Origin: Moorella glycerini
GTDB taxonomy: Bacteria > Bacillota > DSM-521 > Neomoorellales > Neomoorellaceae
Reading direction: 5' to 3'
Assembly (NCBI RefSeq): GCF_009735625.1
Contig: NZ_CP046244.1
Location: 3,360,909 to 3,424,908 of the forward strand
Length of the DNA stretch: 64,000 nt
Positions 3,042-21,851 of this stretch are shown here, piece after piece. Under the pieces are notes generated by a model, which worked only from the letters and a program-made list of their open reading frames with translations, was not told the origin of the DNA and did not search any database. Position 1 is the stretch's first letter; each line of letters opens with the position of its first letter. Both the position numbers and the translations under genes were made by a program.

Positions 3042-3146
3042 ATATTTTATGTTATGTCCATCTTTCTAATTTGTCTATTCTCCGCCAAGCGGCAAATTCC
3101 TGCCGCGGCCGTTAAAATATCGTGCCAGGAGGCGAAGTATTTTTTA

Positions 3147-3818: not shown

Positions 3819-3820
3819 GA

Positions 3821-5840: not shown

Positions 5841-5843
5841 AGA

Positions 5844-5874: not shown

Positions 5875-5917
5875 TTAAAGGTCCCGCCTGGTGGAAACTA
5901 TTGTTACCACCTGGAAA

Positions 5918-7470
5918 CTATGCCGGCCACTTTAAGCCTAACTTTTTGATCTTGCCCAGGAGGGCCGTATGGGAAAGTCCCAGGGCGCGGGCGGCTTTAC
6001 GGGCCGAACCATGGCGTTTCAAGGCCTCCTGAACGGCGTTCGCCTCGACGGCCCGGACGATCGCCGCCAGGGTCTTTAGCTCCGGTTGCGGGTTCCTGCT
6101 GAGTAACGGCCCTTCCCAATTATAAAGCCAGATATGCTCCGGCAGGATTTGGGGGCCGTTGACCAGGTTGACAGCCCGTTCCAGGACGTTGACCAGCTCC
6201 CGGATGTTGCCCGGCCAGGAGTAAGCAGTTAGTTTATTCAGGGCAGCCGGGGTTAATTCCGGGACTGCTCGGTTGAGATGCCGGGCCAGCTTATCCAGGA
6301 AATGTCGGGCCAGCAGGGGGATGTCTTCCCGCCTCTCCCGTAAAGGCGGCAGGAAGATAGGGACCACATTAAGACGGTAATAAAGATCTTCTCGGAATAG
6401 GCCCTGCCGGACCATGGTTTCCAGGTCGCGATGGGTGGCGACGATCACCCGCACATTGACGGGCTCTTCGCTATTAGAGCCCACCCGGCGGATCTTGCCT
6501 TCCTGGAGGACCCGCAGCAGCTTGGCCTGGATGGCCGGGGAGGCCTCGGCGATTTCATCAAGGAAGATAGTTCCCCCTTCAGCGGCGGCAAAGAGGCCGG
6601 CCTTACCCCCCTTACGCGCTCCGGTGAAGGCGCCGCCGACATAACCAAAGAGTTCGCTCTCCAGCAGTTCTTCCGGCAGGGCGGCGCAGTTGACGGGTAT
6701 GAAGGCTTTCTGCCGCCGGGGGCTCTCCGTATGCAAGGCCCGGGCGAAAAGCTCCTTCCCGGTACCGCTTTCACCCCGGAGAAGAACGGTGGAGTCTCCC
6801 AGGGCGACCATGCGTCCCATGGCGACGACGCGGTTGAAAGCCGGGGTGTTGCCGATGAGATCGCTGAAGGTGATGGCCTCTGGTTGGGCCAGGGTATAAA
6901 CCATCTGCCTTAATTCGGCAATATCTTTCATGGTGGCCACGACGCCGACCACCGTACCGGCAGGGTCCCGCAGGCAACGGCCGCTGGTCAGGTGGCAAAT
7001 CCTGCCCCGGGGGCCGGTGATATCCAGTTTGATATTGTTGTAAGGCCGACCGTCAGCCAGGCAGCGCAGGATGGGCAAATCCGACCCCAGGAAAGAAGCA
7101 ATGGGCTGTTCCAGGGCCTCGGCGCGGGTAACCCGCAACATTCTCTCGCCTATGGGGTTGAGGGAGGTAATGCGCCCGTCGGCATCGATGGCGACAATGC
7201 CGTCACTTACAGAATCCAGGATTATTTGCAGGCGTTGCTCCCTTGCTTCATGGGGCAGGAGCCGGATGGTCTCGAGGTGGCGGACCCCCTGAATGGCCGC
7301 CAGCTCGACCTAGAGTTCTTCCCTGGAGAGGCCGGACCGGCCTCTATTTCCAGGTACATATTGTCCGGGATGACTTCTAGGGAAAGGATATTCAGGCCAT
7401 GGCGGGATACTACCCGGGCCACATCGGCAATCATACCTACCCGGTCGGCAAACTGGAGGCGCAGGCGCAT
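5918..7470 (-). pseudogene. TyrR-like sigma-54-dependent activator (ACT-PAS-AAA+-HTH), disrupted
   Basis: ATG at 7470, preceded by AAGAAGGTGA, opens an ACT domain (MRLRLQFADRVGMIADVARV). The frame is lost at about 7320-7340. The downstream frame also carries an in-frame TAG at 7310-7312, then reads on through VELAAIQGVRHLETIRLL, a PAS domain, an AAA+ domain with Walker A GESGTGKE and the sigma-54 contact motif GAFTGA, and a TyrR-type HTH (ARALGLSHTALLGKI). The AAA+ and HTH parts are uninterrupted down to 5918, so a 407-residue protein starting at 7141 could be made without sensing domains. It follows the AOR gene at 7657 and may once have regulated it. Frameshift plus stop within about 30 bases makes a genuine pseudogene likely, barring sequencing error. 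Confidence 0.82.
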
Positions 7471-7656
7471 GGGGTCACCTTCTTTACCAGGTTCGGGATC
7501 GAATATCTAACTGGCAGAAGTCTTCTCCGCCTTCCCTAGCCGGACTCCTGAAGACAGAGGTATATGATCAGGGTTCCAGGTGCATAAGCCGGCAAATCAG
7601 GCGCTCAACCTTGAACAGAGCACATTTTATTGGTTGCCGGCGAAGACGTTGGCCCT

Positions 7657-9558
7657 TCAGAAGGGATCTGCTGCAGGCAAATCTTTAACCAATTCTTCCA
7701 GACCAAGTTCCTTCAGCCTGGCGGCAGTAGGAATACCATCCCCGGTCCAGCCGCCCAGGGCGTAGTATTCATCCAGCATGATGTCCAGGTTGATGGTCAG
7801 ACCCCGGCGGGAGAGTTGGGCCTTACCCGGCGGTATTTTTTCGATCTCCTCCGGGTTGACGTAGACGTCCAGGGGTTCCTGCAAAGAACGCGGCGGCAGG
7901 TAATCGTCTTTGCGGTTGAAACCGTGGCGGACGTTATACATCCGTTCCAGGTTGACGATGCGCTGGCCGATGCGCATGATCTCTTCGTCGCTGATTGGGA
8001 TACCTAAAGCCCGCAGTCCTTCAGCCAGGTCGGCCGGGAGAATGGCGTAGGTTTCGGTGAAGGCGAACTTGCAAACGCCGGCGGCGTCGGCCAGGGCGTT
8101 GCAGGCTTCCGTGAAACGCACCATATGGGCTTTGAATTTCTCCGATGTAACCTCCATGAGTTCCGGGCCGCACTCCGGCAATACTTTAGCGGCCACGTCG
8201 GTCATCCCGGCCACGTCGATGGTCGGCAGGGCGTAGAGATGGTCGGCGCCGCGGTTGCTGGTGGCGTGTCCCAGGCCGAAGGCTTTCAGCACCCGGCCTT
8301 CCTGCCGCGGCAGTTCCACCCCTTTGACCTCCATGGCGAAAAATTCGCTGCCGCGGCCCAGGCGGGCGCTGGCTGCCTTGACACCGTCGGCCAGCAGGTC
8401 ACCTGTGCCCCGGCGGTAGGCGATGTCTTTGATCAGGCCGATAATGGTTTCCGGATCGCCCCACGCCAGGCTGTACCTGGGGTCGTCCAGCAGGCCCCTT
8501 TCGTGGGCTTCCATGGCGAAGGCGATGACCAGGCCGGTGGAAATAGTGTCCAGGCCTAGTTCGTTACAGAGCTTGTTGGCGTAAATGACCAGCTCGATAC
8601 TGCCATTCCAGAGATTGGAACCCAGGGCGTTAGTGGTTTCATACTCCGGTCCCTCGTTCAGCGGTGTCTTAAAGGGGCCGTCCGGTACTTCGGTAATCCG
8701 GGAGCAGCGGATAGGGCAAGCGTAGCAGCCCTGGGTTTTTACCGTGTAACGGGCCACCGCCGCCGCGTTAATTTCTTTGCCCAGGGGGAATTGCCCCCAA
8801 CGGTGGTTCTTGCTGGGCATGTCGCCGCTCATATTCTTGGAATCAATCAGGCAGACGGTGCCCCACTGGCTGTACATCTGGCTCTCCGGGTGGTTGCGGA
8901 CGGCCGCCGTTACCCGGCGGACCACCTCTTTGAACTCCGGCGGGGTTTCTACCCGGTGGCTGCCTTTGACTACCAGGGCCTTGAGGTTTTTCGAGCCCAT
9001 GACGGCCCCCATGCCGGTGCGGGCCGCAGCCCGGGCGTAGTCGTTGATAACGCCGGCGATACGCACCAGGTTTTCGCCTGCCGGGCCGATGGCGGCCACC
9101 CGGCTGCCGGGGTACCGTTCCCGCAGGGTCTTTTCCGTTACTTCTGTAGTCTGACCCCAGAGGTCGCCGGCGGGGAGCAGCTCCAGGTGGTCGTCCTCAA
9201 TATGCAGGATCACCGGGCGGGCGGCGCGGCCGCGAAAGACGATGAGGTCGTAGCCGGCTTTACGCAGCTCGGGGCCGAAGAAGCCGGAGCTGTTGGCGTA
9301 ACCGTAGGCGCCGGTGGCCGGCGACTTGGCCGTTACCGTATAGCGGGCCGCCGAGGGCCAAGAGGTGCCCGTCAGGGGGCCGGTGGAAAAGATGAGCAGG
9401 TTCTCCGGGTCAAAGGGTTGGACTGCCGGGCCGACATGGTCGTAAAGCACTTTGGCCGCCAGGCCGCGGCTGCCCAGGAATTTTAGCAAATCCTCCTCCG
9501 GCGTCGGTTGAAGCTCGATTTTGCCGGTTGTTAGATCTATCCAGGCTGTTTTAGCCAT
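7657..9558 (-). CDS. aor: Aldehyde:ferredoxin oxidoreductase, tungsten-dependent (AOR family), copy 1
   Basis: About 633 residues, the usual length of AOR, which reversibly oxidises aldehydes to acids with ferredoxin in the cytoplasm. The N-terminal tungstopterin domain has GPLTGT and TGMGAVMGSKNLKA. The [4Fe-4S] ligands are CYACPIRC near residues 278-285, with a fourth Cys late in the protein (AAGVCKF). ELGLDTIS matches the family pterin-binding region. ATG at 9558 follows AGAGGTGA by six bases and is preferred over GTG at 9567. It sits 83 bases after the FAD oxidoreductase gene and upstream of the disrupted activator. Substrate is unknown; acetaldehyde/acetate is plausible in an acetogen. 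The 186-base gap before the activator holds nothing I recognise. Confidence 0.92.
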   Translation of the reverse strand: MAKTAWIDLTTGKIELQPTPEEDLLKFLGSRGLAAKVLYDHVGPAVQPFDPENLLIFSTGPLTGTSWPSAARYTVTAKSPATGAYGYANSSGFFGPELRKAGYDLIVFRGRAARPVILHIEDDHLELLPAGDLWGQTTEVTEKTLRERYPGSRVAAIGPAGENLVRIAGVINDYARAAARTGMGAVMGSKNLKALVVKGSHRVETPPEFKEVVRRVTAAVRNHPESQMYSQWGTVCLIDSKNMSGDMPSKNHRWGQFPLGKEINAAAVARYTVKTQGCYACPIRCSRITEVPDGPFKTPLNEGPEYETTNALGSNLWNGSIELVIYANKLCNELGLDTISTGLVIAFAMEAHERGLLDDPRYSLAWGDPETIIGLIKDIAYRRGTGDLLADGVKAASARLGRGSEFFAMEVKGVELPRQEGRVLKAFGLGHATSNRGADHLYALPTIDVAGMTDVAAKVLPECGPELMEVTSEKFKAHMVRFTEACNALADAAGVCKFAFTETYAILPADLAEGLRALGIPISDEEIMRIGQRIVNLERMYNVRHGFNRKDDYLPPRSLQEPLDVYVNPEEIEKIPPGKAQLSRRGLTINLDIMLDEYYALGGWTGDGIPTAARLKELGLEELVKDLPAADPF

Positions 9559-9641
9559 GGGAATCACCTCTTTGATCTTTTTATAATAACGGCATACATA
9601 ACGATAAAAAGCGTATTATAAATCATTACGTGGCGTTGCTC

Positions 9642-10958
9642 TTACCATGAAAAAAAGCCCTTTGCCATTTTCATCCTTCTAGGTGGCGCCGCCGGGGAGG
9701 TAGGGGCGTCTTGTAATAAATCCGCCCCTACTTTAGCCCGGTAAGTGCTGAAATTGTAGACCTTCCTGCCCGCTTCCCGCCGCAAAAAACCGGCGGGTTT
9801 TTCTTCGGCCACCAGCCATCGATAGTAGCCTATATTCCTAACGTCGCCAATGACGACCGCGCCGACCAATTGTTCCCCGCGGAATATAAACTTAAGATAG
9901 CTTTCTTCCCTATCGATTACCGTAATTTCTTCGTCCCCCTCCCGGGGGCGGGTCCAGCCTACTGATGCGGCCTGAAGGCCGAAAAAGGAAGCCGCGTTTA
10001 CCCGGACACCTATATGGGCCAATTCTTGCGCGCCCGCCATATTAGCGCCTGCTGCGGCGCCCTGGAAAACGGCATTAGGCCACATGGCGTTAACTGCTCT
10101 TTGTTGCTTAAGGGGGTCGTAAGTCTCGCAAACATCACCGGCAGCGTACACCACTTCACTATTGGTCCGCTGGTAACCATCTACTACTATGCCCTTATTT
10201 ACATGCAAACCCATTAACTTGGCCAGGTCGGTGTTTGGCATTACACCTTTGGCAATAATAGCCAGCCTGGAGGAAATATCTTCGCCGTTTTCCAAATGAA
10301 TGCCTTCCAAGCGCTCCCGGCCCGTAAAGGCGCTAACATCGTAGCCAAAGGTTATCTTAATACCGGCCCGCTCCATTCTTTTTTGGATAATGGCCGCCGC
10401 CTTTTCGTCCAGCATTTGTGAAAGTATTTGCCTCGACTTCACCACTAAAAGGACCTGGCCCCCACGGCGGGCCATGGCCTCGGCCGATTTTAGGCTGACC
10501 AACCCTCCTCCCAACACCACCACAGGAGCGCCTGGAGCTTCATCCAGTATTTTTATTACCTTTAAAGCATCTGCCATGGTCCGCATTCCAGTGACGCCCT
10601 TCAGGGAGCTGCCGGCCACCCGGGGAAGCTGGGGAGAAGCCCCGGTAGCCAGGAGCAAACGGTCAAAAACCAGGGCTTCTCCATTTTCTAAATAAACCGT
10701 GCGGCCCTCAAGGTCAGCCCCTACCGCCCTTCGACCAAGGAGCGCCTTGATGCCGAGCCTTTGATAAAAGTCCGGCGGCCGCATGAGGATATCTTCCCAT
10801 CGCGCCGTGCCGGCCACTATATTGGTAATAAATATCCTGGAATAAGCCGGGTAGGTTTCATCCGCTATAAGCGTTATTTCTCCCCTTTGATCTGTCCTTC
10901 TAATGGCTTCGGCCGCTGTTACCCCGGCCGCACTGTTGCCGATAATTAGATAACGCAT
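9642..10958 (-). CDS. FAD-dependent NAD(P)H oxidoreductase associated with AOR
   Basis: 438 residues of the pyridine nucleotide-disulfide oxidoreductase superfamily: an FAD-binding GxGxxG-like start (RYLIIGNSAAGVTAAEAIR), an NAD(P)-binding GGGLVSLKSAEAMA near residue 150, and an FAD-contacting AAGDVCE near 270. There is no redox-active CxxxxC disulfide, so it resembles NADH:rubredoxin/ferredoxin-type reductases and not true disulfide reductases. It starts six bases after the AOR copy 2 stop. The context suggests it moves electrons between the AOR/ferredoxin pair and NAD(P)H. That role is inferred; an NADH oxidase-like activity is an alternative. Confidence 0.85.
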   Translation of the reverse strand: MRYLIIGNSAAGVTAAEAIRRTDQRGEITLIADETYPAYSRIFITNIVAGTARWEDILMRPPDFYQRLGIKALLGRRAVGADLEGRTVYLENGEALVFDRLLLATGASPQLPRVAGSSLKGVTGMRTMADALKVIKILDEAPGAPVVVLGGGLVSLKSAEAMARRGGQVLLVVKSRQILSQMLDEKAAAIIQKRMERAGIKITFGYDVSAFTGRERLEGIHLENGEDISSRLAIIAKGVMPNTDLAKLMGLHVNKGIVVDGYQRTNSEVVYAAGDVCETYDPLKQQRAVNAMWPNAVFQGAAAGANMAGAQELAHIGVRVNAASFFGLQAASVGWTRPREGDEEITVIDREESYLKFIFRGEQLVGAVVIGDVRNIGYYRWLVAEEKPAGFLRREAGRKVYNFSTYRAKVGADLLQDAPTSPAAPPRRMKMAKGFFSW

Positions 10959-10964
10959 TTAAAA

Positions 10965-12911
10965 TCACTCGCTTTGTCCTGTCTTTATATCCCGGCGAGA
11001 GTAAATTAATTTTTCGGCTCCAATCCTGTCTATCGCTTCTTCCAGGCCCAATTCTTTTAGTTTGCTAATGGTAGGATAGCCTGTTCCGGCGTCCCAATCG
11101 CGTAGATAATAATACTCTTCGAGCATTGGTTCCAGCCGGCATACCAGTCCCTTTGCCGCCGCCGAGGGGCTTGGTTCTTCCAAAAAACGGCGGGGTAAGG
11201 TGTCGTCTTTCCGGGAAATGCCGCAAAGGATGTTGTAACAGCGCTGCAAATTGTAAATGCGCTCGCCGATTTTTTTCAAGTCCGGCACGTCGAGGTCCAT
11301 CCCCGTGGCGTAACGAATTGCCTTCGCTATGTCCTCCCAGTAAATCTCCGCTAAGACGAAGGTGCCGCCGGATTTACAATTGCCGGAGCTGTCCACTACA
11401 GCCGCAAAGTCTTCGCCGTCTTTCACCAGGAACCCCTTGTACTTAATGCTGCGGGGGTCAGCCATCTCCGGCAGGTACTCTTTACCATAGCGCCGCTCGG
11501 CCTCAGCCGGATACCCGGTTTCATCTATCGTTGGAAAACCTTTTAAGTGATCGGCCCCCCTGTTAGAAGTTGCGTGGGCCAAACCCATGGACTGTTGGGC
11601 CCTCCCGTCCTGGGCTGCAATCTCCTGGCCTTTGACGTGCATGGCATAATACTCGGCCCCTCGCCCTATTTTTGCGGCGGCCCTTTTAACCCCTTCCGCC
11701 AAAAGGTCGCCCAGGCCCTGCCTATAGGTAATCATTTCCAAAAGCTTAAAGGTAGTATCCATATTGCCCCAGGAAAGATCCAGACCCTCAGCTTCTTCCC
11801 TGGTAAGGATCCCTTTCTCCCACAATTCCATGGCAAACGATATGGCCCGGCTTGCGGATATATTATCTAGTCCCAGCCGGTCCGTCATATCGTTGGCCTT
11901 GAGGATGGAAGGCAAATCGCTATTTAAAATATTGGCCCCAAAGCCATTCAAGGCTTCGTATTCAAAACTCCGGCCGGCCAGTCCTTGATAGGCTCCCTCG
12001 TTTACCCTGAACAATTTATCGCAGGCGACCGGGCAGGCGTAACAGGCCAGGTGTTTGACAAAATACTTTTGGTGCAGGGTCTCGGCATTAATGGCGTCGG
12101 CGAGTTCATAGGCACCATATTGGAAATTTTTAGTGGGAAAGCGGCCGATCATGTTCATTATCGAAACAATTCCTGGCGTCCCGTATTTAGAGACCGCCGG
12201 GTAAATCTCATTAGCCCGCAGGCGCCGGTGCAATTCTAAAGCCAGGTTGTAAAACTCCTCCGGCCGAGCAATGGTCACTCCCTTAGTACCCCTGACTACT
12301 ACCGCTTTTAAGTTCTTAGAGCCCATCACCGCGCCCATGCCGCCCCTACCCAGGGAGCGCTGGGGAGTAACTTGGACACAGGCATACCGCACTAAGTTTT
12401 CCCCCGCCGGACCGATACAAGCCGTTTTAATATCAGGGTCGTGAATTTCTGCCTTTAGGGCTGCTTCAGTTTCCATGGTATCTTTTCCCCAGAGATGGGA
12501 GGCGTCACGGATTTCTACCAGGTCGTCTTCGATATACAGGTATACCGGTTGGGAAGCGCGACCCTGAAAAATTATCATGTCATAACCCGCAAACTTTAGT
12601 TCCGGCCCAAAAAAACCGCCCGAATTGGAATCACCGTAAATATTTGTCAGCGGTGATTTGGCTATTGCTTCAACCCGCCCGCTGTTGGGGATCAGTGTCC
12701 CCCCTAAGGGGCCAGTAGCAAGGATAAATATATTGTCCGGGGAAAGGGGGTCGACTTCAGGAGGCACCATTTCCCACAAAAACCTGCTGCCAAAACCGTT
12801 GCCGCCCAAAAATTTTTCCGCCAAACCTTCATCCAGCGGCATCGTCTTCACCTTCGCAGCAGTAAGATCGACCTGTAATATATTGCCGGCATAGCCCTTG
12901 TATTTAAACAC
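10965..12911 (-). CDS. aor: Aldehyde:ferredoxin oxidoreductase, tungsten-dependent (AOR family), copy 2
   Basis: About 648 residues with the AOR plan: YKGYAGNILQVDLT at the N-terminus, GPLGGT, GRGGMGAVMGSKNLKA, the cluster ligands CYACPVAC and a late Cys in SSGNCKSG. GTG at 12911 follows GGGAGGTG and overlaps the end of the Fe-S protein gene by a few bases, so it is preferred over an upstream frame start at 12959. It is part of the operon gntR - moaD-like - Fe-S protein - AOR - FAD oxidoreductase. The linked Fe-S protein suggests a multi-subunit AOR complex rather than a free enzyme. It is clearly diverged from copy 1, so the substrates may differ. Confidence 0.92.
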   Translation of the reverse strand: MFKYKGYAGNILQVDLTAAKVKTMPLDEGLAEKFLGGNGFGSRFLWEMVPPEVDPLSPDNIFILATGPLGGTLIPNSGRVEAIAKSPLTNIYGDSNSGGFFGPELKFAGYDMIIFQGRASQPVYLYIEDDLVEIRDASHLWGKDTMETEAALKAEIHDPDIKTACIGPAGENLVRYACVQVTPQRSLGRGGMGAVMGSKNLKAVVVRGTKGVTIARPEEFYNLALELHRRLRANEIYPAVSKYGTPGIVSIMNMIGRFPTKNFQYGAYELADAINAETLHQKYFVKHLACYACPVACDKLFRVNEGAYQGLAGRSFEYEALNGFGANILNSDLPSILKANDMTDRLGLDNISASRAISFAMELWEKGILTREEAEGLDLSWGNMDTTFKLLEMITYRQGLGDLLAEGVKRAAAKIGRGAEYYAMHVKGQEIAAQDGRAQQSMGLAHATSNRGADHLKGFPTIDETGYPAEAERRYGKEYLPEMADPRSIKYKGFLVKDGEDFAAVVDSSGNCKSGGTFVLAEIYWEDIAKAIRYATGMDLDVPDLKKIGERIYNLQRCYNILCGISRKDDTLPRRFLEEPSPSAAAKGLVCRLEPMLEEYYYLRDWDAGTGYPTISKLKELGLEEAIDRIGAEKLIYSRRDIKTGQSE

Positions 12912-13395
12912 CCTGTTCCACCTCCCGCAAACCTTTAAAGGAATCGGCCAAACGGGCAACCGCCCGGCGCCGCTTGGCTAAAACAGCCTCAGGGCCTTTC
13001 ACCAGCTTAATGGCACTTGGAGGGCAAACCTTGACGCATTCCGGATCCCCGCCGCACAGGTCGCATTTAAACGCCCGGCCGCGTAAGGAATCAAAGGCCA
13101 CGCCGCCAAAGGGACATGAAGCCACACACATTTTGCAACCCATGCAACGGCCACTGTCGATTTCCCAAGCGCCGGTTGCATGATTTCGTTTGATGGCCTG
13201 GACGGGGCATACTTCAGCGCAGACGGCCTTCTCGCACTGCTGGCAAGTGAAGGGCAGATAAAAGGCCTCTTCTTCATACTTTAATACTGATATGCACGAC
13301 ATGCTCGGCCAAATGGCTTTTTCCCTCCGGTAAGAGCAAAAAGCCTCACAAAGACGGCAACCGGTGCAAACTTCCGGGTCAATATCCAGGTACAA
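12904..13395 (-). CDS. Four-cluster ferredoxin-type electron-transfer protein (AOR-associated)
   Basis: About 163 residues with several Cys clusters: CTGCRLCEAFC near the N-terminus, CQQCEKAVCAEVCP, CMGCKMCVASCP and CDLCGGDPECVKVCP. Together these should bind about four [4Fe-4S] centres, as in the DmsB/HycB/AorX type of electron-transfer subunit. TTG at 13395 has AAGGGGG eight bases upstream and begins a conserved-looking YLDIDPEVC; a longer TTG start at 13449 is possible but its extra residues look unconserved. It overlaps AOR copy 2. It likely wires the AOR to other carriers or to the FAD oxidoreductase; this is an inference from operon position. Confidence 0.85.
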   Translation of the reverse strand: MYLDIDPEVCTGCRLCEAFCSYRREKAIWPSMSCISVLKYEEEAFYLPFTCQQCEKAVCAEVCPVQAIKRNHATGAWEIDSGRCMGCKMCVASCPFGGVAFDSLRGRAFKCDLCGGDPECVKVCPPSAIKLVKGPEAVLAKRRRAVARLADSFKGLREVEQGV

Positions 13396-13478
13396 TGACT
13401 TGTCCCCCTTTCCAATATAAGGCCCGACAAGGGCAAAATTCCTTGCCAACTCCAGCGGCTATGCTACCCCCTACCGGC

Positions 13479-13787
13479 CTAACCACCTGCTACGGCAAAA
13501 AGCAAAACCAATTCCGAACCAGCAGGGACAACCTTGTTGAGGACCTCCCCTCCTTCCCCGGTTATTAGTTGCCCATCAACTAATATCAGCAGCCCGGGAT
13601 TAAGCTCATCCCGGCTGCGAAAAACAAGCTCCGCCAGCGCCGCACCATATTCCCTCGTGAGAAAAACCAGTATTTCCTTTAAAGTTACCCCTTCACCTTG
13701 CCGCCCCGCCTCCGGCACAGCGATCTTCTCGGACATTTTTCCCGTAGCAGCGGCAATTAAATTGTAATATTTAACTGTAATTTCCAT
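13479..13787 (-). CDS. MoaD/ThiS-family sulfur-carrier protein
   Basis: 102 residues with the beta-grasp pattern of MoaD (MEITVKYYNLIAAATGK, later LLILVDGQLI and LNKVVPAGSELVLLF) and the essential C-terminal Gly-Gly (AVAGG). It would carry the thiocarboxylate used to make the dithiolene of molybdopterin/tungstopterin, with a MoeB-type activator and MoaE that are not in this window. Its place in an AOR operon suggests an isoform devoted to the tungsten cofactor. That specialisation is an inference. Confidence 0.87.
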   Translation of the reverse strand: MEITVKYYNLIAAATGKMSEKIAVPEAGRQGEGVTLKEILVFLTREYGAALAELVFRSRDELNPGLLILVDGQLITGEGGEVLNKVVPAGSELVLLFAVAGG

Positions 13788-13801
13788 CCCTGACTCGCCC
13801 T

Positions 13802-14539
13802 CTAAACCAGATTAACCACCATGGTTATGGAGGTTGCCCCCGGATTAAAGTAAATACTGGCGTAACATGCGGGCTCATCCTCTAAAGTCAGCCACTTCTC
13901 TTCCCACCATAAAAGCGGCGTTGCCATATCGACTTTAAATAACTCAGCTCCCCGCGGGTATATCCGCGATTTAATGTTAATGACCATTTTTACCAGTTCC
14001 CCGGCGCAATAGGTTTCGTAAAAATCCTTAAAGGCAAGGTTATCAACCTCTCCATCAGGTAACTGTTGCAGACGCTGGGAGGGTATCTCAATTTCCGCTA
14101 AAATTGCCGGCCGGTCGTCGAGGTAATATATCCTATCGAGTTTAATCACCTCATCCCCGGCCGTCAGTCCCAACGCCGCTCCGGCTTCAGGAGAAAAATT
14201 CCTGGTACGCCTTAAATCCCGGTGCACCACCCGCGGCGACCACCCCTGGCCGTTTAATAAATCTAAAAAATCGGTCGTCATATCCAGGCGAGCCGGGAGA
14301 TTGGCAATAGTTGGATGGCCGTAATTCCCCTTGCCATGCTTTTTGGTTATATAGCCAAGGCGCGCTAATGAGGACAAGGCCTCCCGCACCGTCGCCCTGC
14401 TTACCCCCATCAGCCGCGCCAATTCTTCTTCCCCGGGCAGTTTGTTGTCTGGAAAATGTTTTTCTTTAATCATCGCCAGGAGCAAATCCGCCGCCTGACC
14501 TCGCAGGGTATTGCGCTCCAGTTTTAAATTAAGGGCCAT
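13802..14539 (-). CDS. GntR-family (HutC/UTRA type) transcriptional regulator
   Basis: 245 residues: an N-terminal winged helix (GEEELARLMGVSRATVREALSSL, residues about 35-60) and a C-terminal UTRA ligand-binding domain (FSPEAGAALGLTAGDEVIKL, later AEIEIPSQRL). ATG at 14539 has AAGGGGATT upstream. It is the first gene of the operon with the MoaD-like protein, the Fe-S protein, AOR copy 2 and the FAD oxidoreductase, so it probably autoregulates this unit in response to a small molecule. The possible operator is the inverted repeat at 14572-14594 just upstream. The ligand is unknown. Confidence 0.9.
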   Translation of the reverse strand: MALNLKLERNTLRGQAADLLLAMIKEKHFPDNKLPGEEELARLMGVSRATVREALSSLARLGYITKKHGKGNYGHPTIANLPARLDMTTDFLDLLNGQGWSPRVVHRDLRRTRNFSPEAGAALGLTAGDEVIKLDRIYYLDDRPAILAEIEIPSQRLQQLPDGEVDNLAFKDFYETYCAGELVKMVINIKSRIYPRGAELFKVDMATPLLWWEEKWLTLEDEPACYASIYFNPGATSITMVVNLV

Positions 14540-14571
14540 CAGTTGCTAAATCCCCTTTATACTTTTATACT

Positions 14572-14594
14572 TGTACTTACGTCTATCGAGTACA
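14572..14594. promoter_or_regulatory. Inverted repeat upstream of gntR, candidate operator
   Basis: TGTACT and AGTACA form a perfect 6-base inverted repeat separated by 11 bases, 33-55 bases upstream of the GntR start. Between it and the start, the minus strand has AGTATAAAAGTATAAA, a direct repeat that could include a -10 element. Autorepression is inferred from position only. Confidence 0.4.
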
Positions 14595-14683
14595 TTTAAA
14601 TATTTCTCCCTTGACTTTAATTTTCCTGCCGCCATTCATAAAAAATTTTAAGGTGGATTATTTTCTTGATGTTTTTTCCGGCC

Positions 14684-14715
14684 CCAAAAAAATAAAGGCG
14701 GACTATCTCCGCCCT
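14684..14715 (-). terminator. Rho-independent terminator after the radical SAM fusion gene
   Basis: Stem GGGCGGA / TCCGCC followed on the minus strand by a T-rich run (TTTATTTTTTT). It ends the long metal-transport operon and separates it from the gntR-AOR operon. Confidence 0.75.
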
Positions 14716-14757
14716 TCAATAGTTAATCCACACTAGCTGCCAGTTAATGGCTCCCGC

Positions 14758-16566
14758 CTATTTCCACATCCATTTATTACTAGGTTTTCCAAAAGAGCGG
14801 TTAATGTTGGATATACTAAAATCCGTCGCATAAAATTTCTGATAAAACTCTTCTGCTTCGGCAAAAACATCAAAATTAAATATTTCGGGATGAAGAATAT
14901 TGGCCATATACATCAAACCCAATATCCACCTGGGACTCCCGAAATCCCAACCCGGAGCCGGATGATTATATACTCTTTTATTCCTTACCGCTTCGACGTC
15001 AACACCGGCCTCACAACAATCGGCATAAAAATCTTCAACAGGAGCAGATATAAATGCTGAGATAAATATAATTTGCGGGTTGAGGGCATTCAGTTTTGCA
15101 ACTGAAATTTTCATGCCCGGCCTGCCGCTGCCTTCTATTTCTTTATTAACGCTAATTCCGCCTGCCGCTTCAACCAATTGATTTTCAAAACGTTCCCCTT
15201 TAATGCAAAAAAGTGGTTTGCCCATGGCGTAATATACACGGGGTTTATTGCTGATAAAACGTAAACTTTTTGTAATCAAAGCAACTCTTTCTTCCAGGTA
15301 GGATGCCAGTTCTTCAGCTTTGTTCTCTAGCCGGATTACCCTGCCGAAATATCTGATTGTTTGCATGTACGTTTGCAGGTTTTGCAGGTCACGATGTAGT
15401 TGCGACAACATATTATTACAAAGTACCTCTTCCCAAACCTGCAATACTTTCTTTTTATCGCTAACACCCATGGTAATTAATATTGCTTCCATCATTTCTA
15501 AAGCCCTGGTAAAAGGGTAGCCCCCCTGAAAATCACCTTCCTGGTACTTTGTTTTTGCTAACGTCCCCCTAATACTTTTTAATTCTTGCCCACACCCAGG
15601 ACACGTATTTCCCCTGATTGAACCCGCATCTGCAAATCTCAGTTTTGCCCCCATTGGCCCGTAAAAGTCCCGCTTATAGATGATTTCCCCGCAGCCGGGA
15701 CAAAAGGTATTAAGATAATCGGTGCCGGGAGAATTGAAGAGGTATATATAACTAAGATGTTTTTTCAAGCGCTGGCAAAGTTTTTCCGCCTCCCGTATTG
15801 AGGGCTCCAATAAAGGATCGGCATTTTCCAGCGGGATAAATCGCATTATATGCAGGGGTATATCCTTGGATATTTGAGCTATATGCCGGGCGAGACTTAA
15901 AATTTCTTCTTCATTATGGCGTTGATAAATACAGGAGATCTCAACATGAATACCGCTTTCATAAAGTTTTTTTATATTGCGCAAAACCGGCTTGACCGTG
16001 CTGCCGCCACAGCCACGATACGCCTGGTCAGACAGGCCTTTAACCCCGACATTGATAAAATCCAAATCGCTAATTATTTGAGCTAATGAGGTTTCAGTGA
16101 AATAGGCATTCGTAGAACAACCTACCAGCAGGCCGCAGCTTTTGGCAACTCTGGCGACTTTAATAAAGGTTGGCAAGGAAGCCAGGGGATCGTTCATCAG
16201 AAAAGCAATTCCTATACAATCGTTTTTTATTGCTTCGCTCACTACTTCTTCCGGCGATAGTTTACGTAAGGCTCTGCTGGCAGGATCCATTTCTTTAGCA
16301 ATGACTGTTGAAACACATCCATTGCAATTAAAATTGCACCCCGCCGTGCTAATCTGGAGGAACTTCCCTCCGGGATAAAAATGTAAAATGGGCATTGTTT
16401 CTATCGAAATCGGACAAACAACAAGATAGTTATCGGGATAAAGTTCCGTTATTTCTTGCCCGTTATTTTTATAAAGGCCACACGCCCCTGTTTTGCCTTC
16501 TGGAATTACGCAAGCTCTTTCGCAAATACTACACTTCATAAATCTTACTTCCATATTGTTATCCAT
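14758..16566 (-). CDS. Radical SAM protein fused to a BtuF/FepB-like substrate-binding domain
   Basis: 602 residues. Residues about 10-35 carry a Cys box (KCSICERACVIPEGKTGACG) like that of AmmeMemoRadiSam/PflA-like proteins. The radical SAM cluster motif CNFNCNGC (CX3CX2C) follows near residue 77, then a TIM-barrel-like region. Two CPGCG zinc-ribbon-like pairs occur near 290 and 325. The C-terminal ~170 residues (RVYYAMGKPLF, PQIIFISAF, KRVYNHPAPGWDFGSPR, ILGLMYMANILHPEIFNFD) closely track the C-terminal half of the secreted binding protein at 17237. There is no signal peptide, so this domain should be cytoplasmic. The gene overlaps the methyltransferase by 22 bases and is the last of the operon. 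Function unknown; metal sensing, metallophore synthesis or metal insertion are possible. Confidence 0.85.
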   Translation of the reverse strand: MDNNMEVRFMKCSICERACVIPEGKTGACGLYKNNGQEITELYPDNYLVVCPISIETMPILHFYPGGKFLQISTAGCNFNCNGCVSTVIAKEMDPASRALRKLSPEEVVSEAIKNDCIGIAFLMNDPLASLPTFIKVARVAKSCGLLVGCSTNAYFTETSLAQIISDLDFINVGVKGLSDQAYRGCGGSTVKPVLRNIKKLYESGIHVEISCIYQRHNEEEILSLARHIAQISKDIPLHIMRFIPLENADPLLEPSIREAEKLCQRLKKHLSYIYLFNSPGTDYLNTFCPGCGEIIYKRDFYGPMGAKLRFADAGSIRGNTCPGCGQELKSIRGTLAKTKYQEGDFQGGYPFTRALEMMEAILITMGVSDKKKVLQVWEEVLCNNMLSQLHRDLQNLQTYMQTIRYFGRVIRLENKAEELASYLEERVALITKSLRFISNKPRVYYAMGKPLFCIKGERFENQLVEAAGGISVNKEIEGSGRPGMKISVAKLNALNPQIIFISAFISAPVEDFYADCCEAGVDVEAVRNKRVYNHPAPGWDFGSPRWILGLMYMANILHPEIFNFDVFAEAEEFYQKFYATDFSISNINRSFGKPSNKWMWK

Positions 16567-17180
16567 AATCCGGCTTCACCCCTGTTTATTTCAAATTTAG
16601 AGATTCCCGCTGCCCCCAATGTCTTTACAAAACTCTCCACAGCATTCTCGCCAATATTTTTGTTAATTCTTTCCTGCCAGTTGCTATCTTTTTGCACCAT
16701 CCTGGCATCAATTAACTTTTTTAGTTCGGCATTACCAAAGCCCCCGCCAATAAAGGCTGCGCCCTGGGGAGCGAGTACCCTGTATATTTCTTGAAACGCC
16801 TTTTGCTGATTTTCCCAAAAAAATATTGAACCTCTACTTATTACAAGATCCACTGATTGATCTTTTAACGGGATTTCGTGGACATCACCAAGCAACGTTC
16901 TGGCTCTTTTTTGCAAACCATGACCGGCGATATTTCGTGTCGCTATTTCCAGCATTTCAGGAGACTTGTCAAATAAATATATATACAACTCTGTAATACC
17001 AGCCAGGGCAATCCCCAGATAACCGCCACCGCAGCCGATATCCAGGCAGGTCCCTTTAGTTATGCCCGTTTTTTGTTTTATTTGTTCCGCAATGACAGGA
17101 TAAACCGGAGCAAATACCTCCCGGGCGACCCTATCAAATTCTTCGACATTAATTTCCACTTTAAAGCCCTCGCTTTCCAT
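16545..17180 (-). CDS. Class I SAM-dependent methyltransferase in metal-transport operon
   Basis: 211 residues with a standard class I fold: motif I LDIGCGGGYLGIAL near residue 47, an acidic loop (LFDKSPEML), motif post-I GDVHEIPL, and IYRVLAPQGAAFIGGG. It is of the UbiE/Methyltransf_11 type, whose substrates vary widely, so no substrate can be named. ATG at 17180 is used; the ribosome binding site is weak. It lies 56 bases after the binding-protein gene and overlaps the radical SAM fusion, so the two probably act in the same process, for example modifying a small metal-binding molecule. That is an inference. Confidence 0.83.
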   Translation of the reverse strand: MESEGFKVEINVEEFDRVAREVFAPVYPVIAEQIKQKTGITKGTCLDIGCGGGYLGIALAGITELYIYLFDKSPEMLEIATRNIAGHGLQKRARTLLGDVHEIPLKDQSVDLVISRGSIFFWENQQKAFQEIYRVLAPQGAAFIGGGFGNAELKKLIDARMVQKDSNWQERINKNIGENAVESFVKTLGAAGISKFEINRGEAGLWITIWK

Positions 17181-17236
17181 ATAACAACGTCATGTTCCGG
17201 CCGGAAAACTGCGGGACGGGTAAACCCGCCCCTTCT

Positions 17237-18364
17237 CTATTTCCCCCTGGCCCCGGCCAGAAGGGCATCAGTTTCCTGCTCGGATAAATTATAGTGGTAG
17301 AACCTGGCATAAAAATCCTTGACCGTTGCCACCAGGTTATAATTAAAAACATCCGGATAAAGGAGGTTGGCCAGCCACTTCACCCCGATGATACGGTTGA
17401 CAGAGGGCGGCCGGTCGAACCAGTTGAAGGGCCCGTGAGGAACCTGGTAGACGCGGTGGTTTTTCACAGCTCTAAGGCTCTGCCATTTAGGGTCTTGCAG
17501 GATAGTTTCGTAGGCGCCTCCCTGGGCTACATTCCAGGAGAGAATCACATCGGGATCCCAGGATAGCACCTGTTCCAGGGAAACGGAGCTCATCCCCATG
17601 CCCCCCGGGCCGCGCTGGGGTGGAATGGCCGCCACGTTAATACCGCCGACAAAGTCCAGTACCTGGGTATGCTGGGAAGTAGCGGGATCCGTTTGCAGGC
17701 CGTTGGACCCTTCGGCGTAGTAAACCCGTACCTTCCTATCCAGCGGTATTGCCTTAACTTTAGCGGCAACCTCATTGATAGTGTCCCGGCAATAAGCCGC
17801 CAGTTCCTGTGCCCGCCGTTTATCTCCCAGCAGGTCGCCCATGAATTCATAGGCTTGATCCAGTTTCGTGAGTTCGCCGTCAACCATAACCACCGGTATC
17901 TGCAACTGCTTCTGGATCTGTTCAGCCTGGGAAAGGGCCGTGTTGTCCATGTAGCCCATGGAAACGATGACCTGGGGGTGGATTTTTAAGATCTCCTCGA
18001 TATTGGCCGTGTTTTTAGCATACCAGCCCCCCAGGTTGGGCAATTTCTGGTACTCGGGCAGGATAAACTTTCTCTCTACCTCGTTTAAATCATAGTTCCA
18101 CCCCGCCAGTTTCTCCGGCGCCAGGGTATAAACCATGATGCTCCCCACCGGGCTGGTGGCGAAGACCTTGTTGACTTGGGTTGGAACGGTGACCTGGCGA
18201 CCAGCCATATCGACTATAGTCCTGTTAGCTGCTGCTTGACCGGCAGGAGCCTGGCCGGTTGCTTTCTGGCCACTCCCTTGCGAGCCGCAACCCGCCAGGG
18301 TGGCAGTCAAGATCAGGATGGCCAGGAGCAGGCTAACCCATTTGCAGGCAAAACGCTTCAACAT
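17237..18364 (-). CDS. BtuF/FepB-type metal-chelate substrate-binding lipoprotein
   Basis: 375 residues. A signal segment ends in a lipobox (LAGC), so the mature protein is membrane-anchored outside the cell. The body has the cluster A-II/TroA-like fold typical of B12, iron-siderophore and MolA proteins (DMAGRQVTVPTQVNKVFA, PQVIVSMGYMD, DPDVILSWN, HRVYQVPHGPFNWFDRP). ATG at 18364 follows GGAGGGAAG and overlaps the ATPase end by seven bases. The riboswitch and DUF364 gene upstream suggest molybdate or tungstate as in the class II MolBCA system of Haemophilus. Iron-siderophore or cobalamin transport are the alternatives. Confidence 0.87.
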   Translation of the reverse strand: MLKRFACKWVSLLLAILILTATLAGCGSQGSGQKATGQAPAGQAAANRTIVDMAGRQVTVPTQVNKVFATSPVGSIMVYTLAPEKLAGWNYDLNEVERKFILPEYQKLPNLGGWYAKNTANIEEILKIHPQVIVSMGYMDNTALSQAEQIQKQLQIPVVMVDGELTKLDQAYEFMGDLLGDKRRAQELAAYCRDTINEVAAKVKAIPLDRKVRVYYAEGSNGLQTDPATSQHTQVLDFVGGINVAAIPPQRGPGGMGMSSVSLEQVLSWDPDVILSWNVAQGGAYETILQDPKWQSLRAVKNHRVYQVPHGPFNWFDRPPSVNRIIGVKWLANLLYPDVFNYNLVATVKDFYARFYHYNLSEQETDALLAGARGK

Positions 18365-19179
18365 GTTTCTTCCCTCCTGGTGTCTTTCGGTAATATTTGC
18401 CTACTTACCGGGACGCATACCCGTGTCTCACTGCAACCCGGTATTTCGGCCCGGATTATTTTTACGTCTACGCCGTACAGGCTTTTCAGGTTCTCTTCGG
18501 TCACCGTCTCCTCCGGCCGGCCCAGGCTGTAGACCTGACCCTTCTTCAGAAGCATTACTTTGCTGGCATACAGGAGAGCATGGTCCGGAAAATGCGAGGC
18601 CATAATAATGGCCAGGCCGGTATGAGCCAGCCTCTTAATGTGACTCAGGACCATAACCTGGTTGCCAAAATCCAGGCTGGAAGTGGGTTCATCCATAATT
18701 AAAACTTGAGGTTGCTGGGCTAGAGCGCGGGCGATGAGTACCAGTTGCCTCTCGCCGCCGCTGATCTCGGTATAAACCCGGTCCTGGAGGTGGGAGATAT
18801 TTAACGCAGCCATGGCCTCTTGAACGATTTCCTTATCTTCCGGCGATGGCACGGCGAAAATTCCCAGGTGAGCCGTCCGGCCCATGAGGACCACGTCCAG
18901 AACTTTAAAGGGGAAGGGTGGGGTATGGGCCTGGGGGATATAGCCCATGACCCTGGCTATCCGGGCCTGGGACCAATCGCAGATATTTTCACCCCCGAAT
19001 AGGATTTCTCCCGCCTGTGGTTTTATCAGGCCCAAGATAGTTTTAAAAAGCGTCGTCTTCCCCGAACCGTTGGGCCCCAGCAGGCACATTATTTCCCCGG
19101 ACTCTACCTCCATAGATACCCCGCTGACGACCGCCCGGCCCCAGTAGCCACAGGTTACATCTTTAAGCGTCAGCTTCAT
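18358..19179 (-). CDS. BtuD/FecE-type ABC transporter ATP-binding protein
   Basis: About 273 residues. Walker A GPNGSGKT near residue 38, Q-loop YIPQAHTPP, signature SGGERQL, Walker B VLIMDEPTS and the H-loop MASHFPDHAL are all present, so it should be active. ATG at 19179 overlaps the permease stop in ATGA, with GGAGGGG at normal distance, and is better than the upstream start at 19185. It energises the class II importer formed with the permease at 19176 and the binding protein at 17237. Confidence 0.92.
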   Translation of the reverse strand: MKLTLKDVTCGYWGRAVVSGVSMEVESGEIMCLLGPNGSGKTTLFKTILGLIKPQAGEILFGGENICDWSQARIARVMGYIPQAHTPPFPFKVLDVVLMGRTAHLGIFAVPSPEDKEIVQEAMAALNISHLQDRVYTEISGGERQLVLIARALAQQPQVLIMDEPTSSLDFGNQVMVLSHIKRLAHTGLAIIMASHFPDHALLYASKVMLLKKGQVYSLGRPEETVTEENLKSLYGVDVKIIRAEIPGCSETRVCVPVSRQILPKDTRREETC

Positions 19180-20219
19180 GACCATCCCCTCCGGGTATGC
19201 TGTAACAAATACAGGAAAAAGGGGGCGCCAATCAAAGCAGTGAGGATACCCAGGGGGATTTCCACCGTTGCCAGCACCCGCGCCAGGTCGTCAACCAACA
19301 GCAGGTAGGCGCTGCCCATCAGGATGGTGGCCGGCAATAAAACCTTATAATTGGGCCCTACCACCATGCGGGCCAGATGGGGAACCAGCAATCCCACCCA
19401 CCCAATCATGCCGCTGATGGAGACGCAGGCTGCGGTCATCAGGGTGGAGCACAGGATGACAATCAACCTTAACCCGGCGGTTTCCAGGCCCAGGGCGCGG
19501 GCTTCCTCTTCCCCCAGGGAGAGGACGTTAAGGCGCCAGCGCAGGAGGTAGAGGGGTATTATTCCCAGCAGCACAGGCACCAGGGCCGCATAAACGTCCC
19601 GAGGAGAAATAGACGCCAAGCTGCCCATGAGCCAGAAGGTAATGGCTGGTAATTTATCGTAGGGGTCGGCCAGGTACTTGATTAAGGAAGTACCGGCAGA
19701 AAACAGGGTACCGGTGAGGATGCCGGCCAGGACCAGGACCAGGGCAGGGTCGTGGCGGATCCTGCTGCTTAAGGCGTAAGCCAGAAATACGGCCAGGAGG
19801 CCGAAGAGAAAGGCGCTGACCTGGATGCCGATTACCCCCAGGGAGAAATAAATTGCCAGGGCGGCGCCGAAACCGGCGCCGGCCGAGGCTCCCAGGATGT
19901 CCGGTGAGACCAGGGGGTTTTTAAACATCCCCTGGTAAGCGGCACCGGCGGTCGCCAGGGAGGCCCCGACCAGCATGGCAGCGATAATACGCGGCAGACG
20001 CACCTGGAAGACTACTGTTTCCATAGTGGCCGGCCAGGTGGGTTCGATGGGAAATACCTTTGCCGCCAGAATGGTTAGGAGTTGCCCGGGGGATATGGCA
20101 TAACGGCCCAAGGGAAAAGAGAGCAGGAATGCCAGCAGGGGCAGGGCCGGCAAAGCGATTTCTTTCCAGCGATCCCTGACCAGGGATATATCAGGCGAAG
20201 TTTTCCTGGCCAGCGCCAA
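19176..20219 (-). CDS. BtuC/FecCD-type ABC transporter permease
   Basis: About 347 residues with roughly ten hydrophobic segments and the family signatures GASLATAGAAYQGMFKNPLVSPDILG and GFVGLLVPH-like SGMIGWVGLLVPHLARM. This is the permease type used for B12, siderophores, haem and, in MolBC-A, molybdate/tungstate. The open frame reaches 20240. TTG at 20219, ten bases after GGGGGGAGG, is the best-supported start and overlaps the DUF364 gene end. It is part of the riboswitch-controlled operon 20191 to 14758. Confidence 0.9.
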   Translation of the reverse strand: MALARKTSPDISLVRDRWKEIALPALPLLAFLLSFPLGRYAISPGQLLTILAAKVFPIEPTWPATMETVVFQVRLPRIIAAMLVGASLATAGAAYQGMFKNPLVSPDILGASAGAGFGAALAIYFSLGVIGIQVSAFLFGLLAVFLAYALSSRIRHDPALVLVLAGILTGTLFSAGTSLIKYLADPYDKLPAITFWLMGSLASISPRDVYAALVPVLLGIIPLYLLRWRLNVLSLGEEEARALGLETAGLRLIVILCSTLMTAACVSISGMIGWVGLLVPHLARMVVGPNYKVLLPATILMGSAYLLLVDDLARVLATVEIPLGILTALIGAPFFLYLLQHTRRGWS

Positions 20220-21036
20220 TCGCAGTAAACCTCCCCCCAACCGTTACCTGAACGGCCTGTTCCCGGCTCTGCCTGCTCCTTGCTACAGCAAGCCCTTCAT
20301 CCCGGCTCACCTGAACCATACGGCCGCCGCGCTTGAATATCTCCAGGCAGCCGCCTTCCTGCACCACCCGCCGTATCATCTCTGGTTCCACAACCACGGT
20401 CCCCGCTAGAGTATCAACACCATAATGAAACAACACAGAAGTCAGCGGGGTGCTGGGGCCCACTAGAATAACCCGCGCCCGGCGGCTGAGCTCCACGAGC
20501 CGGGGGAAGGTTTTATTGATCAGAGTGGTAGCGGTGATAAAGACATAATCCTGCTCCGGGAGGATATACTCACAGGCCGGGTCGGGTAAATCGCCCTCGC
20601 GGGGACGGCGTTCTAAAATCGTAAGTTTACAGCTGCGCGCCAGGGGGTCCAGGTCGGGAAAATGGCCGATAACAGTTACCTTTTTACCCCGCACCTGTTC
20701 CTGAAAGCCGGTAAAAGCGCTCACCTGGGGCTGGCTGCGCAAAGGCCGGCCACCGAGGCTCTCTACTTGTTCGGGCGTGTTCAATACAGAATTTATGGCC
20801 GCCAGGCCCAGGGCGGCTTCGAAATTGTTCCAGGACTTAATGTACTTCGCCAGTTCCCGCACGGGCATGCCTTTTATTTCCCCGGCCAGCTTGATGCGCG
20901 GATGGCCCTCCAGGGGCGTCATCACCAGGCCGGTAGCCCGGGAACGGACCAGGATCCAGTTAAGGCCGACGATGCAATCTTCTACCTCCAGATCCGGCGG
21001 TACCGCCGCGATTAATTCATCATAGATTTCCCACAT
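20191..21036 (-). CDS. DUF364 (putative heavy-metal chelation / Rossmann-like) protein, second copy
   Basis: 281 residues with the DUF4213 plus DUF364 arrangement: N-terminal MWEIYDELIAAVPPDL and SWNNFEAALGLAAINSVLN, then a Rossmann-like half (KKVTVIGHFPDLDPLAR, VFITATTLINKTFPRL, ILVGPSTPLTSVLF). It is paralogous to the protein at 2095, sharing the order of motifs but low identity. It is the first gene after the riboswitch at 21103 and is followed by the BtuFCD-like importer. Enzymatic activity is unknown. Its repeated pairing with Mo/W-type importers suggests a cytoplasmic step in oxyanion or cofactor handling. Confidence 0.82.
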   Translation of the reverse strand: MWEIYDELIAAVPPDLEVEDCIVGLNWILVRSRATGLVMTPLEGHPRIKLAGEIKGMPVRELAKYIKSWNNFEAALGLAAINSVLNTPEQVESLGGRPLRSQPQVSAFTGFQEQVRGKKVTVIGHFPDLDPLARSCKLTILERRPREGDLPDPACEYILPEQDYVFITATTLINKTFPRLVELSRRARVILVGPSTPLTSVLFHYGVDTLAGTVVVEPEMIRRVVQEGGCLEIFKRGGRMVQVSRDEGLAVARSRQSREQAVQVTVGGRFTAIGAGQENFA

Positions 21037-21102
21037 AGCTTTGCCTCCTTATCTTGGCTCTACCATCTGGCAGGAGGCGCCCATAACGGGAGGGCGTCAC
21101 CT

Positions 21103-21281
21103 AAAACTAAAGCCCCACCTCAGGAGGGTGGGGCTAATAAAAGCCATAATCAGCCATTGATCAGCCACCTCCTTATACACGAACCTGGGAAGGCATACCA
21201 GTTTCCCGGTATACCCCGTGGGCCTCGCAGCCCAGGCCGGCCACCATAGATCGCTCCTTAGGTTATTCCGGCTCGGAGATG
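21103..21281 (-). promoter_or_regulatory. Moco-type riboswitch with terminator, upstream of DUF364-BtuFCD operon
   Basis: The minus strand carries CTCCGAGCC (about 21277-21269), CTAAGGAGC, and the core ACGGGGTATACCGGGAAACT followed by GGTATGCCTTCC. An outer stem pairs ATCTCC with GGAGGT (21172-21167). A strong hairpin AGCCCCACC / GGTGGGGCT (21135-21111) with a T-rich tail follows. It shares its conserved blocks and order with the element at 2862-3041, while the variable arms differ. It should switch off the metal-transport operon when cofactor is plentiful. A Moco versus tungsten-cofactor preference cannot be told from sequence. Confidence 0.78.
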
Positions 21282-21378
21282 AGAATATTTTATTTTATGA
21301 CCTTAAGTCTAGTTAGACTATATTCCACATACGTTTTAAAATTCCTGCCTATCGGCGTTAAATTCTTTCCTCTGCGTT

Positions 21379-21621
21379 TTAAGCGACGGCCGCCGCCAGA
21401 GCTGCCTGGCCATCAAAAGGCAAGATGGTAACCTGCTGAAAAAATTTAGCCAGCAGCCTTTCTCTTTTACTGTTGGCAGCAAGACCTATCTTCAGTTCAA
21501 AAACTGTTATAGCTGTTATGGTAAGCGTACCATTTCTTAAAGCATGTTCGACATAATCAACTTCCGGCTGGTGCCCTTTCAAAAAGCCAATAATTATCGA
21601 AGTATCGGTTACAACTCCCAC
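21379..21621 (-). pseudogene. vapC: Truncated VapC-like PIN-domain toxin
   Basis: The N-terminal PIN signature VTDTSIIIGFLKG (first catalytic Asp) and TITAITVFELKIGL (Glu) are present, but the protein stops after 80 residues at LPFDGQAALAAAVA. Typical VapC toxins run to about 130 residues, and the later acidic residues (usually in a DLLIAA-type segment) are missing. It overlaps the antitoxin gene by 13 bases as in functional pairs. The toxin is therefore probably inactive. Confidence 0.75.
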
Positions 21622-21851
21622 CGCGACCAGAACTCCTTCACGCGGGCTGCATATTTTTGGCCTTCTTCTTCGCTTAAACTACCGGCCAGTTTTAGAATCT
21701 CGTTAATCTCTTTTTCCCGGTTCTCCGCCCTTGCTAAATATTCCTCAAGGGCTTCATTTACTATTTCTGAATAACCCCGTAATCCTCGCCTGGCCGACAG
21801 GGCTACCAGTTTAGCGCGGGTTTCATTGCTGATTTCAATGGTAGTGCGCAT
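21609..21851 (-). CDS. Ribbon-helix-helix antitoxin-like protein (VapB/CopG type)
   Basis: 80 residues beginning MRTTIEISNETRAKLVALSARRG, a ribbon-helix-helix DNA-binding start, followed by a charged helical tail (EEYLARAENREKEINEIL). It overlaps the PIN-domain gene and would neutralise it and autorepress the pair. Because the toxin looks truncated, it may now be an orphan repressor. Confidence 0.78.
   Translation of the reverse strand: MRTTIEISNETRAKLVALSARRGLRGYSEIVNEALEEYLARAENREKEINEILKLAGSLSEEEGQKYAARVKEFWSRWEL

Follow-up and report, generated by a model that had tools for sequence, protein, structure and literature searches.

A molybdenum cofactor RNA-headed importer operon of Moorella glycerini encodes a radical SAM enzyme fused to half of a binding protein

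Little is understood of how anaerobes obtain molybdenum (Mo) and tungsten (W), which are available at trace levels and often bound to sulfide, and importers of molybdate/tungstate are regarded as simple oxyanion pumps. A locus of Moorella glycerini (GCF_009735625.1) raises the question of what an importer of this kind does with enzymes of its own. In a stretch of 64,000 nucleotides (hereafter the window; positions 3,360,909-3,424,908 of the 3.56-Mb genome, contig NZ_CP046244.1), a single minus-strand operon (14758-21036) encodes an importer, a methyltransferase and a 602-aa protein in which a radical S-adenosylmethionine (SAM) domain is joined to part of a substrate-binding protein (SBP). The operon is headed by an RNA of the molybdenum cofactor (Moco) riboswitch class. 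Its relatives suggest that anaerobes may take up or process Mo and W by a route not yet described.

All six open reading frames (ORFs) are intact and mostly overlapping, and Pfam matches agree with the genes and order given in the original prediction, which was made from the DNA letters. On the minus strand, these are a DUF4213/DUF364 protein (20191-21036; PF04016 E 6e-40, PF13938 E 1e-20), a BtuC-like FecCD permease (19176-20240; PF01032 E 5e-87), a BtuD/FecE-like ATP-binding cassette (ABC) ATPase (18358-19185; PF00005 E 7e-34), a class III substrate-binding lipoprotein (17237-18364; PF01497, Peripla_BP_2, E 7e-19, with the lipobox LAGC recognized by eye), a class I SAM methyltransferase (16545-17180; Methyltransf_11, PF08241 E 2e-21) and the fusion (14758-16566). 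The permease, the ATPase and the class III lipoprotein make up a class II ABC importer, as had been proposed, and the SBP matches 4pag (E 5e-54) and MolA HI_1472 (E 4e-18) in PDB. The predicted Moco-type riboswitch is also there (RF01055; 61.4 bits by cmscan against a gathering score of 36), but not its proposed end at 21281, since the aptamer occupies 21153-21290. Its P3 stem is present as an 18-nt insert able to fold. Right after the aptamer, an intrinsic terminator with a 9-bp stem and a T-run (21111-21135, minus strand) could act as the expression platform; a pattern scan alone yields such terminators at or below the shuffled expectation, and its support is the position directly behind the aptamer. 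This position makes Moco-dependent OFF-switching of the operon plausible. Another terminator-like hairpin lies behind the operon on the same strand (14694-14716).

The 602-aa protein has a Radical_SAM match in Pfam (E 5e-17) together with a weak Peripla_BP_2 match. Its first 340 residues (15547-16566, minus strand like all parts of the fusion) contain an N-terminal CX2CX3CX9C motif, the radical SAM core and zinc-ribbon-like pairs, with support from TIGR04337 and Foldseek. The cluster motif CX3CX2C (C77, C81, C84) is located at 16315-16338 and, with the Radical_SAM domain, places the protein in the radical SAM superfamily. The cluster motif and the zinc-ribbon pairs had both been pointed out in advance, and they are indeed invariant, as is the N-terminal motif, in 11 aligned homologues with 52-96% identity to the window protein (the CX2C pairs are 289/292 and 322/325). 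The best NCBIfam match is TIGR04337 over residues 10-328 (E 4e-38), its 131 bits being under the family cutoff of 220. No signal peptide was found in the 602 residues, and the iron-sulfur motif implies, on sequence grounds, a cytoplasmic enzyme.

The expected likeness between the C-terminal segment and the operon's own SBP was recovered by BLASTP (E 7e-17 over 248 residues) and by profile-profile comparison (E 5e-66), and the same half finds 4ovk (E 1.5e-16) and MolA HI_1472 (E 5e-6) among PDB sequences. By these alignments, the likeness is not a product of chance. A structure predicted from the 11 sequences, with an alignment that includes three rows from loci L048-L050 (L numbers are our locus ids), has a mean predicted local distance difference test score of 77, rising above 90 in many blocks of the C-terminal half. 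When its fold was searched, binding proteins came first (4ovk 3.6e-12, MolA 3psa 8e-9) and pyruvate formate-lyase (PFL) activase next (3c8f, Foldseek E 8e-6). The C-terminus thus models as a binding-protein lobe with MolA among the fold matches, which was the check proposed for it. The idea of a binding-protein domain has nevertheless to be refined to a linker helix plus the C-terminal lobe of a class III protein, at about residues 398-590 (14797-15375). Only about half of each binding protein is aligned (TM-score by target of about 0.5), and a conserved helical insert, formed by residues 341-397 (15376-15546; helices in the model, 15 of 57 positions invariant), stands instead of the N-lobe, which is therefore missing. 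Class III (helical-backbone) binding proteins have two lobes connected by a long helix, while the fusion has only the helix and the C-lobe.

Conservation of the remaining lobe equals that of the radical SAM core (mean identity among homologues 0.72 in both), with peaks at residues 441-480 and 541-560. Its dN/dS is 0.14-0.21 compared with 0.09-0.12 for the remainder of the fusion, and it is under purifying selection. We do not retain its derivation from the SBP of the same operon: all fused lobes fall into a single clade (100/100), whose sister group has a support of 79/38. A glycyl-radical activase role was also discarded despite the PFL-activase-like fold, as the fusion type has no constant partner besides the methyltransferase and no glycyl-radical motif was seen by eye in protein U (see below).

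Our searches covered one phylum well and other phyla through patterns of close relatives. Fusion homologues were found in Moorella, several Syntrophomonas, Acetobacterium bakii and metagenome-assembled genomes of Clostridia, Dethiobacter and Deferribacteraceae, with two copies in the genome G009. The methyltransferase is directly upstream of the fusion in ten loci and at most two genes away in two more, being clearly missing only in L012. The original prediction asked for co-occurrence of the fusion with Moco riboswitches across genomes and would have failed had the homologues consistently stood apart from the transporter; neither this failure nor that of the C-terminal fold occurred, and each association holds for part of the loci. 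The FecCD importer adjoins the fusion in seven (the window, L048, L007, L008, L009/L071, L050 and L014) and is not adjacent in four; the Moco RNA heads the fusion unit in 6 of 12 assessable loci (the window, L048, L049, L051, L008 and L009/L071), the other half being without it. For this reason, the constant unit is the methyltransferase plus the fusion and not the whole operon. A permissive scan for weak Moco RNAs upstream of L007, L050 and L014 returned none. In L049, the second methyltransferase-fusion pair of G009, a Moco RNA immediately precedes the pair and there is no importer, so that Moco would regulate these enzymes in their own right.

The neighbours vary. The L050 operon (4952-17102; genome G035) includes MoeA (molybdenum insertase), DUF364, several binding proteins and two methyltransferases, and several binding proteins per operon are likewise found in the Syntrophomonas fusion operons. 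In L070 (6144-11150), the fusion and methyltransferase are right behind a type I importer of the SsuA/NMT1 type, not FecCD. The L051 genes behind the Moco RNA (725-4407; fusion, methyltransferase and SBP) are fragmented by frameshifts or stops, which could be a result of decay or assembly error. A Moorella relative, L060 (8391-15663), has a nearly identical Moco-RNA importer operon with an O-methyltransferase (PF00891) and a second DUF364 in the place of the fusion.

The nearest unfused radical SAM relatives adjoin a protein of about 385 aa, here called U, inside SBP/FecCD/ATPase operons. U is present in 13 of 398 genomes of the phylum, with genes at L053:466-1590, L054:10326-11564, L055:6699-8111, L057:635-1780, L072:354-1535 and 3816-4985, L073:1834-3045, L088:4481-5626, L089:8067-9203, L090:7363-8613, L091:7347-8642, L092:7517-8686, L093:5243-6403, L094:8228-9388 and L095:7981-9117. 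It has no Pfam or NCBIfam family at a meaningful score and no solved relative in PDB, even by profile search. Profile comparisons were negative for a disguised MEMO, AMMECR1, DUF364, SBP, MoeA or methyltransferase, and nanobody matches in a single-sequence search were weak and judged to be chance. The Moco RNA heads the importer/radical SAM operon in all eight loci fetched for holding U, and in 11 of 12 assessable U-type operons overall (those eight plus L052, whose sequence stops before U could be seen, L054 and L072), the exception being L055. The arrangement is not uniform: in L095, U is just past the Moco-RNA operon on the opposite strand; in L091, a WtpA-like/type I set comes first behind the RNA, then ATPase, SBP, radical SAM and U, and FecCD was not found; L054 runs from the Moco RNA through radical SAM, U and a MatE exporter to WtpA (tungstate-binding protein). 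U-type genomes carry 2-17 Moco RNAs each, and a random 2-kb stretch would be expected to hold one about 0.2-1.5% of the time. In these genomes, no gene for an ordinary AmmeMemo radical SAM enzyme is near a Moco RNA. The radical SAM tree separates three clades, namely the fusion (100/100), U-linked (99/97; six rows bear the label A, being the same gene kept under another locus id) and AmmeMemo (100/100) proteins, and the fusion does not group with the AmmeMemo enzymes. Stops inside some AmmeMemo homologues were considered as selenocysteine and judged instead to be stops at the gene end across which the alignment had continued. A dedicated Mo/W pathway is supported more strongly by the U system than by the fusion loci.

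The two operon types also differ in their RNAs. P3 is present in all five examined RNAs heading fusion operons and in those of both related but fusion-free Moorella importers (L060 and L061); the 11 RNAs at operons with an unfused radical SAM gene (L052 to L095) all lack it and have a gap of 4-5 nt instead. The L057 RNA has P3 but is placed before a fusion-type FecCD. Automatic measurement misplaced P3 in L009, L051, L057 and L093, which were read by eye. In Regulski et al. 2008 (PMC2408646), the presence of P3 is tied to Mo metabolism and its absence to W, as a correlation with no binding result. As P3 segregates by operon type, that link leads us to predict that the fusion operons are probably the Mo version and the U operons the W version. 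Near the L007 fusion locus, two (perhaps three) tandem Moco RNAs lacking P3 were seen ahead of a formate dehydrogenase-like gene with a selenocysteine insertion sequence-like element below the gathering score (15284-17107).

Among described systems, the closest is the MolBC-A importer (Haemophilus HI1470-1472; PMC4031551), with which the operon shares a class II importer and a class III binding protein, and, among solved structures, MolA is one of the closest relatives of the operon SBP as well as of the fused half. MolBC-A as described lacks a radical SAM enzyme, methyltransferase, DUF364 and half-SBP fusion, and molybdate/tungstate binding in the Moorella operon would be assumed by likeness. 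The AmmeMemoRadiSam enzyme (TIGR04337) has the same order of cysteine motifs, whereas the fusion scores below that family's cutoff, falls in a separate clade and carries the half-SBP; no AMMECR1/MEMO partner was seen at the fetched fusion loci. A functional analogy is offered by HmuW/ChuW/HutW (PMC10404700, PMC10035031), radical SAM enzymes of metal-chelate uptake operons that act after import: HmuW, in a heme-uptake operon, opens the imported chelate and releases iron anaerobically (PMC10404700). These enzymes belong to another radical SAM family and deal with another metal; the HemN-like radical SAM methyltransferases that open heme (HmuW/ChuW) are not among the Pfam/NCBIfam matches listed for the fusion, no dedicated test having been made. 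To our knowledge, none of them has a fused binding-protein lobe. DUF364 (PDB 3l5o; PMC2954201) neighbours metal ABC transporters, including molybdate and tungstate ones, and that paper makes no mention of a radical SAM link. Moco RNAs head Mo/W transport and cofactor genes in the available text of PMC2408646, where a Syntrophomonas wolfei operon is noted with "other genes of unknown function" and neither the fusion nor the radical SAM-U cassette is described; we found neither in our searches of the open-licence literature, and those on AmmeMemoRadiSam function and on radical SAM molybdophores/tungstophores also gave nothing on the fusion.

We favour, at somewhat less than an even chance, a Moco-switched Mo-acquisition operon in which an imported Mo species is handled by radical SAM and methyl-transfer chemistry, with a parallel W module. 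When Moco is low, the RNA would permit transcription, and the importer, DUF364, methyltransferase and radical SAM/half-SBP protein would be made. The imported species would be more than bare molybdate, perhaps a chelate or a cofactor-like complex. The cytoplasmic half-domain may act as a receiver that offers the radical SAM domain either this species or the ligand remaining once the metal is released, and the chemistry of that domain, together with methyl transfer, would free or convert the Mo species for cofactor synthesis, much as HmuW/ChuW-type enzymes act on imported heme. The unfused radical SAM and U would probably do likewise for W. We favour this explanation because the Moco RNA and terminator head the operon and the same RNA occurs at L008, L009/L071, L048 and L051 of other genera, because MoeA is in the L050 operon and WtpA in one U operon (L054), because L049 has the enzyme pair directly behind a Moco RNA, because P3 separates the two operon types, because the half-lobe matches the core in conservation and is under purifying selection, and because the combination of Moco RNA, importer, radical SAM and U recurs while AmmeMemo genes stay apart from Moco RNAs. 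A more specific version, to be taken as tentative, is a two-branched undescribed pathway, with a Mo branch (fusion plus methyltransferase, P3 RNA) and a W branch (radical SAM plus U, P3-lacking RNA), where radical SAM chemistry makes or opens organic complexes or metallophores.

Several points weigh against this explanation. The substrate of the importer and the ligand of the half-domain are both inferred; MolA-type importers carry bare molybdate, so that a chelate is not required, and a lone lobe without its partner lobe may bind nothing. FecCD is not adjacent in L049, L012, L013 and L070, and no Moco RNA is at the operon head in L007, L050, L012, L013, L014 and L070. The published relation between P3 and metal is statistical rather than a binding measurement, and phylogeny could add to the segregation. 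The MatE exporter of L054 points to synthesis and export instead of processing after uptake. The original prediction is in this way only partly supported: the support extends to the importer being of class II, to regulation of the Moco type, to the fusion being cytoplasmic and to a Mo/W link across genera.

That exporter, lying between U and WtpA, is one of the reasons to consider metallophore synthesis, where the radical SAM enzyme and the methyltransferase (or U) would build a Mo/W-binding molecule to be exported and retaken via the class II importer, the half-SBP holding a product or intermediate. The importer-free methyltransferase-fusion pair under a Moco RNA in L049, the lone pair in L013, the O-methyltransferase and second DUF364 of L060 and the multiple binding proteins per Syntrophomonas operon would all suit it. 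We think it unlikely, as the exporter was seen in one genome only, enzymes that could build a scaffold, such as a peptide synthetase or ligase, are missing, and nothing in the window operon predicts a scaffold. Less likely still would be a plain molybdate importer of the MolBC-A type, with enzymes acting on Moco or on a Mo/W enzyme, or with a half-domain sensing cytoplasmic Mo. The SBP match to MolA, the MoeA of the G035 operon and the aldehyde:ferredoxin oxidoreductase (AOR) genes nearby in the window agree with it, as does the resemblance of the fusion to domains of the Btr type, which are cytoplasmic binding-protein domains (the operon SBP also gives a weak Btr match). On the other hand, the U and fusion enzymes are generally not beside Mo/W enzymes, and the window already holds another Moco RNA (2917-3052; 81.6 bits, with P3) at the head of genes for DUF364, ModA and ModB (unit 425-3052), and therefore the fusion operon is not the sole Mo route of the genome. 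Loci L012, L013 and L070, with neither an adjacent FecCD importer nor a Moco RNA, could also mean that the methyltransferase and the fusion move together as a separate unit with a function of their own, placed behind Moco RNAs and importers by chance. This is improbable given that the association repeats in separate genera, that G009 has a second copy directly behind a Moco RNA and that the sister clade is almost constantly tied to the Moco RNA.

Other features were observed in the window. Downstream of the operon, a separate cluster (10965-14539) comprises a GntR regulator, MoaD-like and ferredoxin-like proteins and AOR, and a second AOR-like ORF is found at 7657-9567. A small gene pair at 21379-21851 resembles, by eye only, a ribbon-helix-helix/PIN toxin-antitoxin, with a short PIN-like ORF (80 aa). 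There is also a cobalamin riboswitch (53778-53943; 106.7 bits), and two nearly identical copies of a group II intron (5460-5756 and 45571-47376) with a reverse-transcriptase-like ORF at 4534-5442.

If the favoured explanation is true, an importer under Moco control with its own radical SAM enzyme would imply organic Mo/W chemistry ahead of cofactor assembly. As an enzyme architecture, the fusion with half of a transport protein kept in the cytoplasm would be new, and with the sister cassette comes a conserved family, U, that lacks Pfam, NCBIfam or PDB annotation. The split in P3 provides a sharp Mo-versus-W prediction that is open to test.

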